The notes below the pieces were generated by a model. The model was given only the letters and a program-made list of their open reading frames with translations. It ran no database searches and had not been told where the DNA came from. A DNA stretch of 64,000 bases from Bifidobacterium gallicum DSM 20093 = LMG 11596 (GTDB lineage: Bacteria; Actinomycetota; Actinomycetes; Actinomycetales; Bifidobacteriaceae), in NCBI RefSeq assembly GCF_000741205.1, contig NZ_JGYW01000005.1:370818-434817 (forward strand), in the 5' to 3' direction. Made by a program: the position numbers and the translations under genes. Positions within the stretch are counted from its first letter, which is position 1; each line of letters starts with the position of its first letter. This document shows, one piece after another, positions 2,364 to 38,136 of this stretch.

Positions 2364-3392
2364 TCACCTTTCATTCAATTGATTGATAATCGATTCGCGG
2401 TCAACGTCCAGTGACGGCCATGTCATGTTGAAGTTCTTCATCGTGTTGCGCAGCAGTTCGGAGACGACCATGCGTGAGTACCAGCGCTGGTCACTTGGAA
2501 TCAAATACCAAGGAGCCCATGTGGTGCTGGTGCGTTCAAATACGTCTTGCCAGGCTGTCATGTAGTCGTTCCAGCGGTCACGAGCTTCCAAATCACTGGG
2601 GTCGAATTTCCAGAATTTGCGCGGGTCATCCAAACGACCTAAGAAATGCTGTTTCTGCGCTTCCTTGCTGGAGACCAAGTAGAACTTCAGTACGGCACAG
2701 CCTGAGGCAACGAGGTTATGTTCGAATTCATTGACTTCGTCATATCGCTGCATCCACTCATCTTCAGGCAATGTGCCATAGACATGGGGCATCACGATGT
2801 CTTCATATTGGGACCGATCGAAGATGGCAATCCAACCCGGGTTCGGCAGTTCCTTGCGAATACGCCACAGGTAATTGTGGTCCTTCTCCACAGCGGTTGG
2901 AGCTCCGAAGCCGTGATAATGGATGCCCATCGGATTGACCTGACTGAACACATGCTTGACGATGCCACCTTTGCCTGAAGCATCCATGCCCTGCAAGATA
3001 ATCAGCACCCTGCGCATGTCGCCACGAGTACCGTTCGCATACATGAGCTGCTGGTAGCGTTCAATTTCCAATGCGCTCAAATCAAGGAACCGTTGGCATT
3101 CCTCTTTGGTGCCATGGAACCCCGGCGTGGACCCCGCATCAATATCAGTCAGATGCGTTTCATTCTTACGGAACACCAACCGTTGGGCTGGCGGCTGCGT
3201 GAACACCGAACTGAGTTTCTCACTGGCTTTTGCCGCCGCAGTCATGCGTTCAACCACATCATCCATCGTGTTGATCTTGGCGATGCGCTTTTCAATCTTC
3301 TTGAGCTTCTTACCGATATCCGACCGCTTGGCGGTCTCTTTCTTGGTTTTCGACGCCTTTTTGGCTTGCTTCTTGCCTGTATCCGCTGCCAT
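2364..3392 (-). CDS. ppk2: PPK2-family polyphosphate kinase / polyphosphate:nucleotide phosphotransferase
   Basis: 342 residues. Transfers phosphate between inorganic polyphosphate and nucleotides in the cytosol. The PPK2 fold is clear: Walker A GMDASGKGG at about residues 135-143, the Walker B/lid motif DRSQYED at 192-198, and the conserved HYHGFGAPT and WAPWYLIPSD segments. The first 40 residues are lysine-rich and probably disordered, longer than in the minimal enzyme. Whether it acts on AMP, ADP or GDP cannot be decided by eye. No strong Shine-Dalgarno precedes the ATG. The gene is transcribed alone, with a long non-coding region upstream that contains the 53-bp palindrome array. Confidence 0.9.
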   Translation of the reverse strand: MAADTGKKQAKKASKTKKETAKRSDIGKKLKKIEKRIAKINTMDDVVERMTAAAKASEKLSSVFTQPPAQRLVFRKNETHLTDIDAGSTPGFHGTKEECQRFLDLSALEIERYQQLMYANGTRGDMRRVLIILQGMDASGKGGIVKHVFSQVNPMGIHYHGFGAPTAVEKDHNYLWRIRKELPNPGWIAIFDRSQYEDIVMPHVYGTLPEDEWMQRYDEVNEFEHNLVASGCAVLKFYLVSSKEAQKQHFLGRLDDPRKFWKFDPSDLEARDRWNDYMTAWQDVFERTSTTWAPWYLIPSDQRWYSRMVVSELLRNTMKNFNMTWPSLDVDRESIINQLNER

Positions 3393-3808
3393 GGAGCCGA
3401 TTGTGGCGCGTTATTCTGTGAATTCCATCAAAACCCGCCGATACCTCAAAACTAAGAAACCGGTGCTTTAGCCCGTCGTCCCCACATCAGTGCATGCGTA
3501 GCATACAGTCGTTTCATCTATCACTATCCGTAGCTAACTAAGGCCCTAACTACAGTTCATACGTATTACGAGGTTTATTATCATGTGCCACTGCAATATT
3601 CCAGCCACACAAACGTAAGAACATATATGGCACGTCTCTTCTGATAGGTACATCTCGCGCAGCAAATAGCAGAGAGGTTCCAACCTCTCCATTTCGCCAT
3701 CGCGGCCGAGAATGTTTACTCAGGAGAATCATCTTTGGAACTGGTCGATGTGCTAGACGAACACACTCTGTTGCTACAACATGCATAGTTGCTACACAGA
3801 ATGACAGC

Positions 3809-4175
3809 GCATGAAGGTGTGGTTTTGGTGTACCGGCCGGTACCGGAAAACTACGGATTCAAGGTTGGTTTGTGATCTTTGCTTATCGGGTCGGTAAGCA
3901 AAGACGCATTTTCTGGTATAGAAGTGCAGTTTTCCTGACCAGGCTGGTAAGGAAAGATGCGGTTTTGGAAGCAGAAATGTAATTATCCTGACCATGCTGG
4001 TCAGGAAAGATGCATTTTCAGGACCGGAATTGTAGTTTTGCTGACCATGCTGGTCAGGAAAGATGCACTTTGGGGGCTGAAAGTGCAGTTTTGCTGACCA
4101 AACTGGTTAGCAAAGATGCATGTTGGGGCACCTGCGCATGAGCTGAGCATGAAGGTGCGGCTCTGGTGATGCCAG
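3809..4175. repeat. Array of six palindromic units with exact 53-bp period
   Basis: Equivalent cores start at 3829, 3882, 3935, 3988, 4041 and 4094, each 53 bp apart. The best-preserved core is CTGACCATGCTGGTCAG in units 4 and 5; the others are diverged but stay palindromic (GTACCGGCCGGTAC in unit 1, CTGACCAAACTGGTTAG in unit 6). Most cores are followed by AAAGATGCA-like bases, and several units contain a second weaker inverted repeat such as GCACTTT with AAAGTGC in unit 5. A 22-bp imperfect direct repeat beginning GCATGAAGGTG flanks both sides, near 3809 and 4147. No matching protein-coding signal was found. Confidence 0.85.
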
Positions 4176-4368
4176 CAGGGATGAAACGACGCAGGTAGGA
4201 GCAGCAACGCGCGCGCGTCACTTCCCCATCCGCCGCAATTGGTGTTGGAGTGTCTATCCGTCATGGTTGTTGTGGCCGTTGGTTGGCCTTATTCGTCTGC
4301 GACGAAGGCCACGCACTCCGCAGCCAGAAGAGCAAGACCTACGCATCTGGGTTTGCCTACACAACGCA

Positions 4369-4407
4369 CCAGGTCCGGCTCCCCATTTTCAGGGGAACCG
4401 GACCTGG
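4369..4407 (-). terminator. Strong hairpin downstream of the glutamate transporter operon
   Basis: CCAGGTCCGGCTCCCC pairs with GGGGAACCGGACCTGG with one mismatch around a 7-nt loop. It lies about 90 bp past the stop of the last transporter gene on the minus strand. There is no T-run after it, so it may be a stability hairpin rather than a classic intrinsic terminator. Confidence 0.5.
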
Positions 4408-4500
4408 CATCTTCAATCAGCACACGTGCAAGCGGGTTGCCGTGGCAGCGCAGCGCAGCGCCAGCCACCTCGGCACCTCAGCATCTACACCGCATCAGCG

Positions 4501-5763
4501 CTAGAACGCGGGCTTCGTGTTGTCGTTGTCACGTCCTGTGCCACCGTTGCGGCGCCACGGATGCTTTTTCGGCTTCGACTTCGCCTTGGGCTTCAGCTCA
4601 TCATTCGCCTCAGCCGCACCGGCACCAGCACCGACGGTCCCAGGCAGCGGCCCATCCGGCGGTTGTACGAGTTGGAACTCGCCCGTGGGCTCAGGATATT
4701 CGCGATCGCGCGCAGCCGAGACCACATGCTGGCTTTCCGGATGCGTCTCATCAAAGCCCTGCTGGTAGCGCGTAGCGCGCCACTTGTGGATGCTCGCGTT
4801 GGTGCCACGGTGATGCACATGGTACAAACGCTGCATACCACCCAATGGCTGCTCTTCGTGTGCCACGGCGATCTGGTTCACGTTTGACGGATCCATGATG
4901 GCGATTGGAGCCAACGGTTCAGCTTCGGTCGGCGCCATCGTGCGCTCTTGCATGCGTGTGGGCAGCCATTCAGCCAGCTTCGACAACGCCGCGCAGACGA
5001 TGAAGTAGATGACGGCGGCCACCACGAGCGTTTGCAAAATGTTGAAGTACATCGAGCCCAAGCGACGCGACTCCTGCAGCAGATCCGTATACATGATGAT
5101 CGAGCCCAGAGCCGTATCCTTGAGCACCACGACGAGCTGCGTCACAGCGGCAGGCAGCATGGCGAAGATCGCCTGCGGCACTTCGACTTGCATCAGTGAC
5201 TGTGTGCGCGTCAGACCCAACGCCAATGAGGCTTCTCGTTGGCCATTGGGCAAGTTGCCCACGCCGGAACGCACGAGCTCAGCGATGACGGAGCCGTTAT
5301 AGAGCACCAGAGAAATAACCACAGCCCAATACGACGGGCTATCCCAGCCGATGAACGCGAACGCACGCCAGAAGAAAATCATCATGATCAGCACGGGCAC
5401 GGCTCGGCAGAACTCCACCACAATGCCGCACACGCCACGCAGCAGCACGTTCGGCAGCAAACGGCCGACGCCCAGAATCAAGCCAAACAGCACGGCCCCC
5501 ACCACGGCGAGCAGGGACGCGCGAATCGTGGCCCACAAACCCGGCAGATAGAAGTCGGACCAAGCCTCACCATCCAAAGCGGGCTTCCACAGCTCCCAGC
5601 TGAGCTGGTTCTCGCCATCCGGCGGATTGTGCAAGCGTAGAAGGATCAGCACGAGCACAATCACAAAAATGATGCCGGCCACCCAATTGGCAATACGGAT
5701 GCGCTTGAGGGCCTTGGGGCCCGGAGCGTCGAACAGAACGGATTCACCTGTTGCACTAGCCAT
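4501..5763 (-). CDS. gluD: Glutamate/amino-acid ABC transporter permease (GluD-type) with long C-terminal tail
   Basis: 420 residues. Membrane subunit of a polar amino acid importer of the His/Glu/Gln family. Transmembrane segments lie at about residues 25-45, 75-100, 110-140, 150-170 and 240-265. The EAA loop reads EASLALGLTRTQSLMQVEVPQA and contacts the ATPase. From about residue 275 on, roughly 145 residues are hydrophilic and rich in Pro, Lys and Glu, ending in a basic stretch; this tail is much longer than in a usual permease of about 270 residues. The start has a strong AGGAGG and lies 3 bp after the gluC stop. Last gene of the gluABCD operon. Confidence 0.88.
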   Translation of the reverse strand: MASATGESVLFDAPGPKALKRIRIANWVAGIIFVIVLVLILLRLHNPPDGENQLSWELWKPALDGEAWSDFYLPGLWATIRASLLAVVGAVLFGLILGVGRLLPNVLLRGVCGIVVEFCRAVPVLIMMIFFWRAFAFIGWDSPSYWAVVISLVLYNGSVIAELVRSGVGNLPNGQREASLALGLTRTQSLMQVEVPQAIFAMLPAAVTQLVVVLKDTALGSIIMYTDLLQESRRLGSMYFNILQTLVVAAVIYFIVCAALSKLAEWLPTRMQERTMAPTEAEPLAPIAIMDPSNVNQIAVAHEEQPLGGMQRLYHVHHRGTNASIHKWRATRYQQGFDETHPESQHVVSAARDREYPEPTGEFQLVQPPDGPLPGTVGAGAGAAEANDELKPKAKSKPKKHPWRRNGGTGRDNDNTKPAF

Positions 5764-37719: not shown

Positions 37720-38136
37720 ATGAGTAACGACAGTGAAATACGCAAGGGACGACACTGTGTCTTTGACATGCACGTTCATTTGGTTTTCGTCACGAAATAC
37801 CGGCACAAGGTCTTCACCGACCAGCACCTGCGCGCGCTCGAACGCATCTTCCATGACGTATGCGACGACTTCGGATGCCGTCTGGAGGAGTTCAACGGAG
37901 AAACCGACCACGTGCATCTGCTCGTCAACCTCACCCCGACCACGCAGGTCAGCAAGCTCGTCAACAGCCTCAAGGGAGTATCAAGCCGCTACATGAGACG
38001 AGACTACCCCGAACTCGCCAAGCATTACTGGCGCGCCCAACGCCTCTGGTCCGGCAGCTACTACGCCGGAACCGCAGGGGGCGCTCCTCTGGCAACGCTC
38101 AGGAAGTACATCGAACACCAGAACAGACCGGACTAA
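37720..38136 (+). CDS. tnpA: IS200/IS605 single-strand transposase TnpA (Y1 HUH)
   Basis: 138 residues from ATG 37720. Y1 HUH transposase: HUH motif DHVHLLV (His-hydrophobic-His) and catalytic Tyr in the C-terminal helix (TLRKYIEHQNRP). N-terminal RHCVFDMHVHLVFVTKYRHKV is the typical family start. Cuts and joins single-stranded DNA at the hairpin ends of the element. Full length and apparently intact. Confidence 0.94.
   Translation: MSNDSEIRKGRHCVFDMHVHLVFVTKYRHKVFTDQHLRALERIFHDVCDDFGCRLEEFNGETDHVHLLVNLTPTTQVSKLVNSLKGVSSRYMRRDYPELAKHYWRAQRLWSGSYYAGTAGGAPLATLRKYIEHQNRPD

Follow-up and report, generated by a model that had tools for sequence, protein, structure and literature searches.

The 64,000-nt stretch of Bifidobacterium gallicum DNA analysed here (the window) carries a gene for polyphosphate kinase 2 (PPK2; 2364-3392, minus strand; PF03976, E 6.5e-62) and a gene for an ABC-transporter permease (4501-5763, minus strand; PF00528, E 2.3e-19). 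Our codon-usage gene caller found no gene between the two and the open reading frames listed there were unsupported, in agreement with an earlier note on this DNA, which had described six palindromes spaced by 53 bp in gene-free surroundings. Direct reading confirmed six units at a spacing of exactly 53 bp within 3816-4133 (no strand assigned to the array as a whole), with core starts at 3829, 3882, 3935, 3988, 4041 and 4094, where that note had placed them. Tandem Repeats Finder scored the period of 53 at 230 and the doubled period of 106 at 267. With the units in register, 5, 12, 10, 10, 10 and 10 of the 13 positions about the centres of units 1 to 6 were complementary, giving a total of 57/78 compared with a maximum of 41/78 in 1000 dinucleotide shuffles of the array, each of which was allowed the best of 33 phases.

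All six units are given on the plus strand. Unit 1 (3816-3868; core GTGTACCGGCCGGTACCG), placed by the 53-bp register and direct reading, is diverged: its stretch GTACCGGCCGGTAC is a perfect short palindrome, it matches the family poorly beyond that stretch, and its best profile placement (3815) scored -17.6, which leaves it outside the 247 recognised units described below. A unit resembling it was read directly in the array on contig C2. Unit 2 (3869-3921; core CTTATCGGGTCGGTAAG) was assigned by register and by its 12 complementary positions, and is one of the few units in the window that show symmetric differences. Units 3 (3922-3974; core CTGACCAGGCTGGTAAG; 70.4 bits with our covariance model R1), 4 (3975-4027) and 5 (4028-4080), the latter two both with core CTGACCATGCTGGTCAG, and 6 (4081-4133; core CTGACCAAACTGGTTAG) were assigned by R1 and the register. 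The second inverted repeat that had been noticed within several units, GCACTTT/AAAGTGC, is real (TGCACTTT...AAAGTGCA, 4064-4087, no strand assigned), but it spans a linker and is made of two outer arms, the right one of a unit and the left one of its successor. Past the array, a degenerate piece of repeat family D2 (4147-4168, plus strand) is 86% like 3809-3830 and lies off the 53-bp register.

Description as a single array proved too narrow, and a search of the same genome for the 53-bp unit, as had been proposed, recognised many dispersed arrays. BLASTN with the unit gave dispersed matches in this genome and none in 98 other genomes, 60 of them from the same genus; R1 gave at least 181 matches, with 150 of 1083 candidates scored; and a profile walked along the fetched loci recognised 247 units, grouped into 32 arrays that each contain 3 to 23 such units. 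A 16-base core pattern matched the whole genome 133 times forward and 128 times in reverse, compared with 4 and 4 for the backwards pattern, and because 133/133 forward and 125/128 reverse matches fell within the fetched loci, the census is near complete for well-matching units. Contigs C1 and C12 begin inside 53-bp arrays (loci L023, 1-224, and L103, 1-165), and these starts may be opposite ends of a single array that was broken in assembly, in which case the true count would be 31. By a simple codon-usage script, which is other than a standard gene finder, the arrays are intergenic save one that overlaps a doubtful 70-codon ORF. Flanking genes were convergent at 10, tandem at 14 and divergent at 3 of the 27 arrays with both neighbours known (five arrays with one neighbour undefined were left out of this count), the background in the window being 7, 21 and 7 of 35, respectively. 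Ten flanking proteins that we scanned were unrelated to each other, and included PPK2, the ABC permease, a pilin-like protein, kinases, a glycosidase, an ion channel and TrmD. The main clue to the arrays is their distribution around the chromosome, which is invisible in the window alone.

The consensus of the 53-bp unit, AACTGCAGTTTTCCTGACCAGGCTGGTCAGGAGAGATGCGGTTTGGGGCCGGA, consists of two near-identical 21-bp arms, inverted around a central base, and a linker of about 10 bp; the half-site in this species is approximately AACTGCA-n2-TTTCCTGACCAG, about 20 bp in length. Conservation is mirror-symmetric, with G5/C39, C14/G30 and A17-C19/G25-T27 at 94-100%, and information in the linker is low (0.1-0.6 bit per position over 247 units). 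Neighbouring units are 73% identical, and neighbouring linkers are merely 50% identical while their length stays constant: of 204 neighbouring pairs, 174 were spaced by 53, 13 by 52, 12 by 54, 4 by 51 and 1 by 56. Arrays L085 and L086 (C1, 62.4 and 80.9-81.6 kb) show flips of the slight unit polarity at a centre spacing that is still 53; these flips may be noise, since 50/247 units score nearly equally on both strands.

The proposal that symmetry is kept while sequence drifts, with compensatory changes between units as its check, failed over the whole set. In 47 high-scoring 53-bp units, 83.0% of cells paired compared with 83.4% after shuffling, and 5 pairs had changed on both sides compared with 7.4 in shuffles. 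Across all 247 units, pairing of the arms was near the shuffled expectation, with a top z of 3.6 at the outermost pair and several pairs below expectation, down to -5.1. Likewise, 198 units of a related 51-bp type from ten other genomes gave a sum over 21 pairs of 12.08 compared with 12.15 in shuffles, single pairs ranging from a z of 4.0 (a core pair, A-T in 131 and G-C in 11) to -3.9. This absence of overall covariation indicated that, by and large, the two arms are conserved independently of each other, as expected of dimer half-sites, and it counts against a structured RNA.

Under strict filters, the 53-bp type was found in only one of 112 genus genomes and is therefore not, in this form, a site that the genus as a whole requires. 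R1 recognised one array in genus member G004 (E 9e-4 for that genome, weak over 112 genomes), and reading this array revealed a 51-bp unit with a similar outer arm and a different core. A pattern built on the outer arm matched 42/112 genus genomes, mostly with 1-3 chance-like matches as in the backwards control, and was strong, with a control of 0, in G137, G138, G048, G058 and G055. Tightening this pattern left 19, 27, 16, 26 and 26 places in these five genomes, respectively, and 5, 4, 2, 1 and 1 in G015, G004, G029, G139 and G002, again with a control of 0. Arrays were confirmed by direct reading in G050, G004 and G058 among others, and neighbouring 51-bp units were 51 bp apart in 114/153 cases. 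The strict 51-bp arm pattern matched the B. gallicum genome once, no better than its control. A third type, built of arm TTGCATTTGTGACG around a 16-bp centre and repeated every 61-62 bp, was matched in 10/112 genus genomes: 35 matches in G025, 18 in G138 (which carries both the 51- and the 61-62-bp type), 4 each in G137 and G142, 3 in G144, 2 each in G050 and G058, and single matches in G048, G118 and G016 that may be due to chance, the control giving singles in five other genomes. By these patterns, which register well-matching units only, most of the 112 genus genomes are without an array. The earlier note had reckoned with relatives whose copies lack conserved symmetry; symmetric 51-bp arrays, and some of 61-62 bp, exist in relatives.

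The three types share the half-site look TGCA-TTT-GAC and differ in core and geometry. When the 53- and 51-bp half-site profiles were aligned, 5 of 2000 column shuffles aligned as well, and the likeness was modest (4.9 for the reverse-complement control compared with 6.0); judged from these profiles, common descent of the two half-sites is plausible rather than proved. Distances from GAC to GTC, measured by hand on the consensuses of the 53-, 51- and 61-62-bp types, were 10, 9 and 21 bp within units and about 43, 42 and 41 bp between units, or approximately 1, 1 and 2 helical turns inside units and 4 between them. The outer TGCA motif of the 61-62-bp type fits helical turns worse (38 and about 24 bp), and phasing of half-sites across the three types is suggestive only. 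Outside the genus, genome contigs of named organisms, a set probably without genus records, gave no match to the 53-bp core and one lone Clostridiales match to the 51-bp core. Viral contigs gave no match in either of two scans, plasmids gave none, and a phage collection gave one weak match (E 0.5) and, in tblastn with the PPK2 protein, 16 weak and uninformative records. Among the titles and abstracts of the literature searched, there was no report of such arrays in bifidobacteria.

We then compared the fetched loci of G055 and G058, leaving out one unfetched G058 place. Eleven of 16 arrays or single units in G055 have a nearby gene in common with one of 14 in G058, and 8/16 lie in exactly the same gap, with differing unit numbers (e.g., 3 and 9); between these two species, arrays are thus inherited at the same loci. 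In the eight same-gap arrays, starting from G055 (22/23 units aligned), high-information positions were 90% identical (394 positions) compared with 70% for low-information and linker positions (276; Fisher p 1e-10), and starting from G058, where 19/40 units were alignable, the values were 88% and 67% (p 6e-9). The half-sites are therefore under purifying selection between these two species, a measurement made on the 51-bp type in one species pair, the type in the window being that of 53 bp. At another locus, 3' of one nitroreductase gene, the 51-bp type is present in six species (G058, G137, G048, G015, G004 and G139), its first unit centred 37-41 bp past the stop codon in 5/6. The same locus carries the 61-62-bp type in G025 and, by position, in G138 and G050. 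No 51-bp unit was found at the nitroreductase stretches of G055, G029, G034, G002, G109 and G099; in G055, G029 and G034 the right gene end was missed and the whole stretch was scanned instead. By direct reading, the B. gallicum array at this locus lies one gene further, between a short gene and an apparent 5S rRNA end. This offset weakened the case for strict positional homology between the B. gallicum arrays and those of its sisters, as did the finding of only about three neighbourhoods in common with G055 and G058, a number that could arise by chance; such homology was set aside.

The position of dnaA, established in nine genomes, served to place the arrays on the chromosome. Counted by quarter, starting at the origin and ending at the terminus, the 63 places of the 51-bp type in eight genomes numbered 34, 18, 10 and 1 (KS p 6e-8), although these places are not independent, since loci are common to sister species and the effective number is smaller. 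Mean distance from the origin was below one half in 8/8 genomes with 51-bp arrays, and single-genome bias was below p 0.06 in five of the eight but not in G055, G004 and G029. For the 61-62-bp type, 18 places in four genomes with known dnaA gave quarters of 8, 8, 2 and 0 (p 6e-4), and in G025, whose dnaA position was not located, one stretch amounting to 51% of the circle was without such arrays (p 0.003). In B. gallicum, dnaA lies on C1, and C1 and C3 (433 kb) together hold 17 arrays compared with one on C5 (435 kb; p 7e-5), the contig that carries the window, making the window array an outlier on an array-poor contig. The end of C5 maps to 0.83 of the origin-terminus path in G055, whereas in sisters the counterparts of five C3 genes lie at 0.10-0.18; of two C1 genes, one maps at 0.03 and the other, near the array at 61.5 kb, at 0.52 in G055. 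Unplaced contigs C2, C4, C7, C8, C9 and C12 carry 1, 5, 1, 5, 1 and 1 arrays, so that, with C5, the contigs whose nearness to the origin was not established account for 15/32 arrays. The 51- and 61-62-bp types are thus dispersed and depleted at the terminus, a statement that extends to the 53-bp type through a few placed contigs only. The bias towards the origin could be an insertion preference.

The observed arrays combine symmetric conservation of half-sites without overall covariation, stable spacing and a bias towards the origin. Judged from sequence and placement, the best reading, to which we give somewhat less than even chances, is that they are clusters of dimer-binding sites for a protein of the chromosome-organising or nucleoid-occlusion type; we infer the protein binding, the dimeric state and the organising role. 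Each unit would be a double site, two inverted half-sites of about 20 bp for a putative dimeric, sequence-specific DNA-binding protein, and in an array such sites would recur every five helical turns or so, which would leave all bound dimers facing in one direction. B. gallicum has about 32 such intergenic clusters. In sister species, and in B. gallicum as far as contigs are placed, the clusters are densest near oriC and scarce towards the terminus, and so could mark the origin-proximal chromosome. Their likeliest job would be to nucleate a complex of protein and DNA by which the origin half is organised; alternatively within the same scheme, the complex might restrain cell division until segregation of the origin half is complete, in the manner of Noc and SlmA sites. 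Of the operator, centromere-like array or repeated RNA suggested earlier, this retains an array of dimer sites with constrained spacing and abandons the argument from compensating changes, while it disfavours the structured RNA and the local operator. A bolder version, possible but on balance doubtful, is that bifidobacteria have a chromosome-marking system unrelated to Noc, SlmA and ParB-parS, in which a fast-evolving putative binder acts on origin-half arrays that are rewritten in each lineage (53, 51 or 61-62 bp) as specificity and geometry change, like the turnover of centromere satellites. If true, bacteria would offer a case in which tandem arrays of binding sites change their sequence from lineage to lineage but keep their anatomy and chromosomal placement. 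Titles and abstracts on nucleoid occlusion and ParB/parS gave no account of how bifidobacteria mark the origin half or place the septum, and the arrays offer a testable handle, as bait DNA for the protein and through a predicted phenotype on their removal or relocation.

Nucleoid occlusion, in which Noc (ParB family) or SlmA (TetR family) binds its sites and acts on division, would be the closest functional parallel by analogy. The Noc sites (NBS) measure 16 bp according to one abstract. As described in two papers (PMC4331003, PMC4726725), Bacillus subtilis has about 70 NBS, which are absent from the terminus, with Noc acting as a timing device, and Escherichia coli has 24-52 SlmA-binding sites (SBS) of similar distribution. 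Like these, the sites here are palindromic, scattered round the chromosome and sparse near the terminus, and their sequences are conserved as half-sites; unlike those dispersed sites, they number in the hundreds, stand in tandem at fixed spacing and have longer half-sites, the comparison being one of sites alone. REPs, as described in PMC3733652, are palindromes of 20-40 bp with an unpaired GTAG or CGTC at one end, RAYT being proposed for the GTAG kind; REPs and BIMEs are short palindromes outside genes, present in many copies and at times clustered. Our arrays are likewise high-copy extragenic palindromes, but they differ in their independent arms (overall pairing no higher than in shuffles for sets of 47, 247 and 198 units, as opposed to a kept hairpin), exact tandem period, origin-biased places and lack of a RAYT-type gene in sisters. 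They carry no terminal unpaired GTAG or CGTC tag: both motifs are missing from the 53-bp consensus, and in the 51-bp type CGTC is an internal part of the arm and GTAG occupies the centre. The main text of PMC3733652 contains neither 'bifidobact' nor 'actinobact'. CRISPR arrays have near-identical repeats and unique long spacers, whereas repeats here are 63-73% alike with linkers of about 10 bp, and the window has no match to a known structured RNA family in Rfam at gathering scores. Clusters of parS and the sopC region of plasmids are inverted-repeat sites that serve a partition protein, those of sopC being arranged in tandem, and in this they resemble our arrays; they occupy one or few loci, whereas 32 arrays on nine contigs do not form a single-locus centromere.

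Among rival explanations, the weightiest, since the B. gallicum lineage has many arrays at loci of its own, is a selfish non-autonomous repeat, in which palindromes were copied into gaps and multiplied in tandem by a transposase or by replication slippage, the half-sites being needed by the enzyme. The gaps that hold arrays tolerate insertion (the 10 convergent, 14 tandem and 3 divergent placements), the 32 B. gallicum arrays have few neighbourhoods in common with those of G055 and G058, and different species carry different repeat types at the nitroreductase locus. However, a Y1 (RAYT-type) transposase was found in none of 13 other genomes, among them eight with 51-bp arrays and G025, in a search that left out G050, G139, G142 and G144. 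B. gallicum itself has three Y1 genes, none of whose loci contains an array unit, and the two that were read both lie beside a TnpB-like ORF as in IS200/IS605; an origin of the REP/RAYT kind was rejected on these grounds. Arm pairing is also too little for a hairpin-reading transposase, and the half-sites of the 8/16 G055 arrays that share a gap with G058 are under constraint, so that we regard a selfish repeat as rather unlikely. In the window, an IS200/IS605 TnpA gene lies at 37756-38121 with a TnpB-like ORF on the opposite strand, its best plasmid match being to Bifidobacterium longum (78.5%).

RNA hairpins serving termination or mRNA stability would account for the strong predicted folding of the transcript (z -10.6), for seven terminator-like sites over 3300-4600, some within the array, compared with 1.2 in shuffles, for the steady distance of 37-41 bp between stop codon and first recognised unit in five sisters, and for the first palindromes at the nitroreductase locus, whose two sides, on direct reading, have both changed between G137 and G139. 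But palindromes fold by construction, the unit consensus lacks a long T run, Rfam gave no match in the window, and two independent sets were free of overall compensatory change; RNA or cruciform structure was rejected for this missing covariation despite the strong single-strand folding, and we consider terminators improbable. Operators for local gene regulation are improbable to the same degree: they would share the dimer-site anatomy, and a downstream promoter is possible at the 14 tandem and the 3 divergent among 27 placements, but 10/27 arrays lie between convergent genes, the origin bias would be left unexplained, and arrays at 32 scattered sites stand beside genes whose ten scanned products are of unrelated kinds, which makes the local operator suggested earlier unlikely. 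Least probable of all, and barely credible in our view, is neutral tandem duplication or an assembly artefact. Starts of C1 and C12 inside arrays are indeed expected at short-read assembly breaks, but the units are diverged (73% identical to neighbours) with sharply uneven conservation, similar arrays occur in single-contig assemblies of other species, and half-sites change more slowly than linkers in such single-contig sisters. Clustered dimer sites organising the origin half remain the reading we prefer.

Two other palindromic repeats were observed near these loci. In G129, four copies of a 46-base repeat with long palindromes lie 3' of the nitroreductase gene (L127, 2361-2938), one of them with a perfect 21-bp stem, AACGGACATACAGCCGATTCG, followed by a T run; these are perhaps true terminators, in another lineage with palindromic repeats at this locus. 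In B. gallicum, a second kind of palindrome array, TTACGGCCGTAA in three copies at 36-37 bp, directly precedes a 53-bp array (L025, 4850-4934; C8, about 76.35-76.43 kb).
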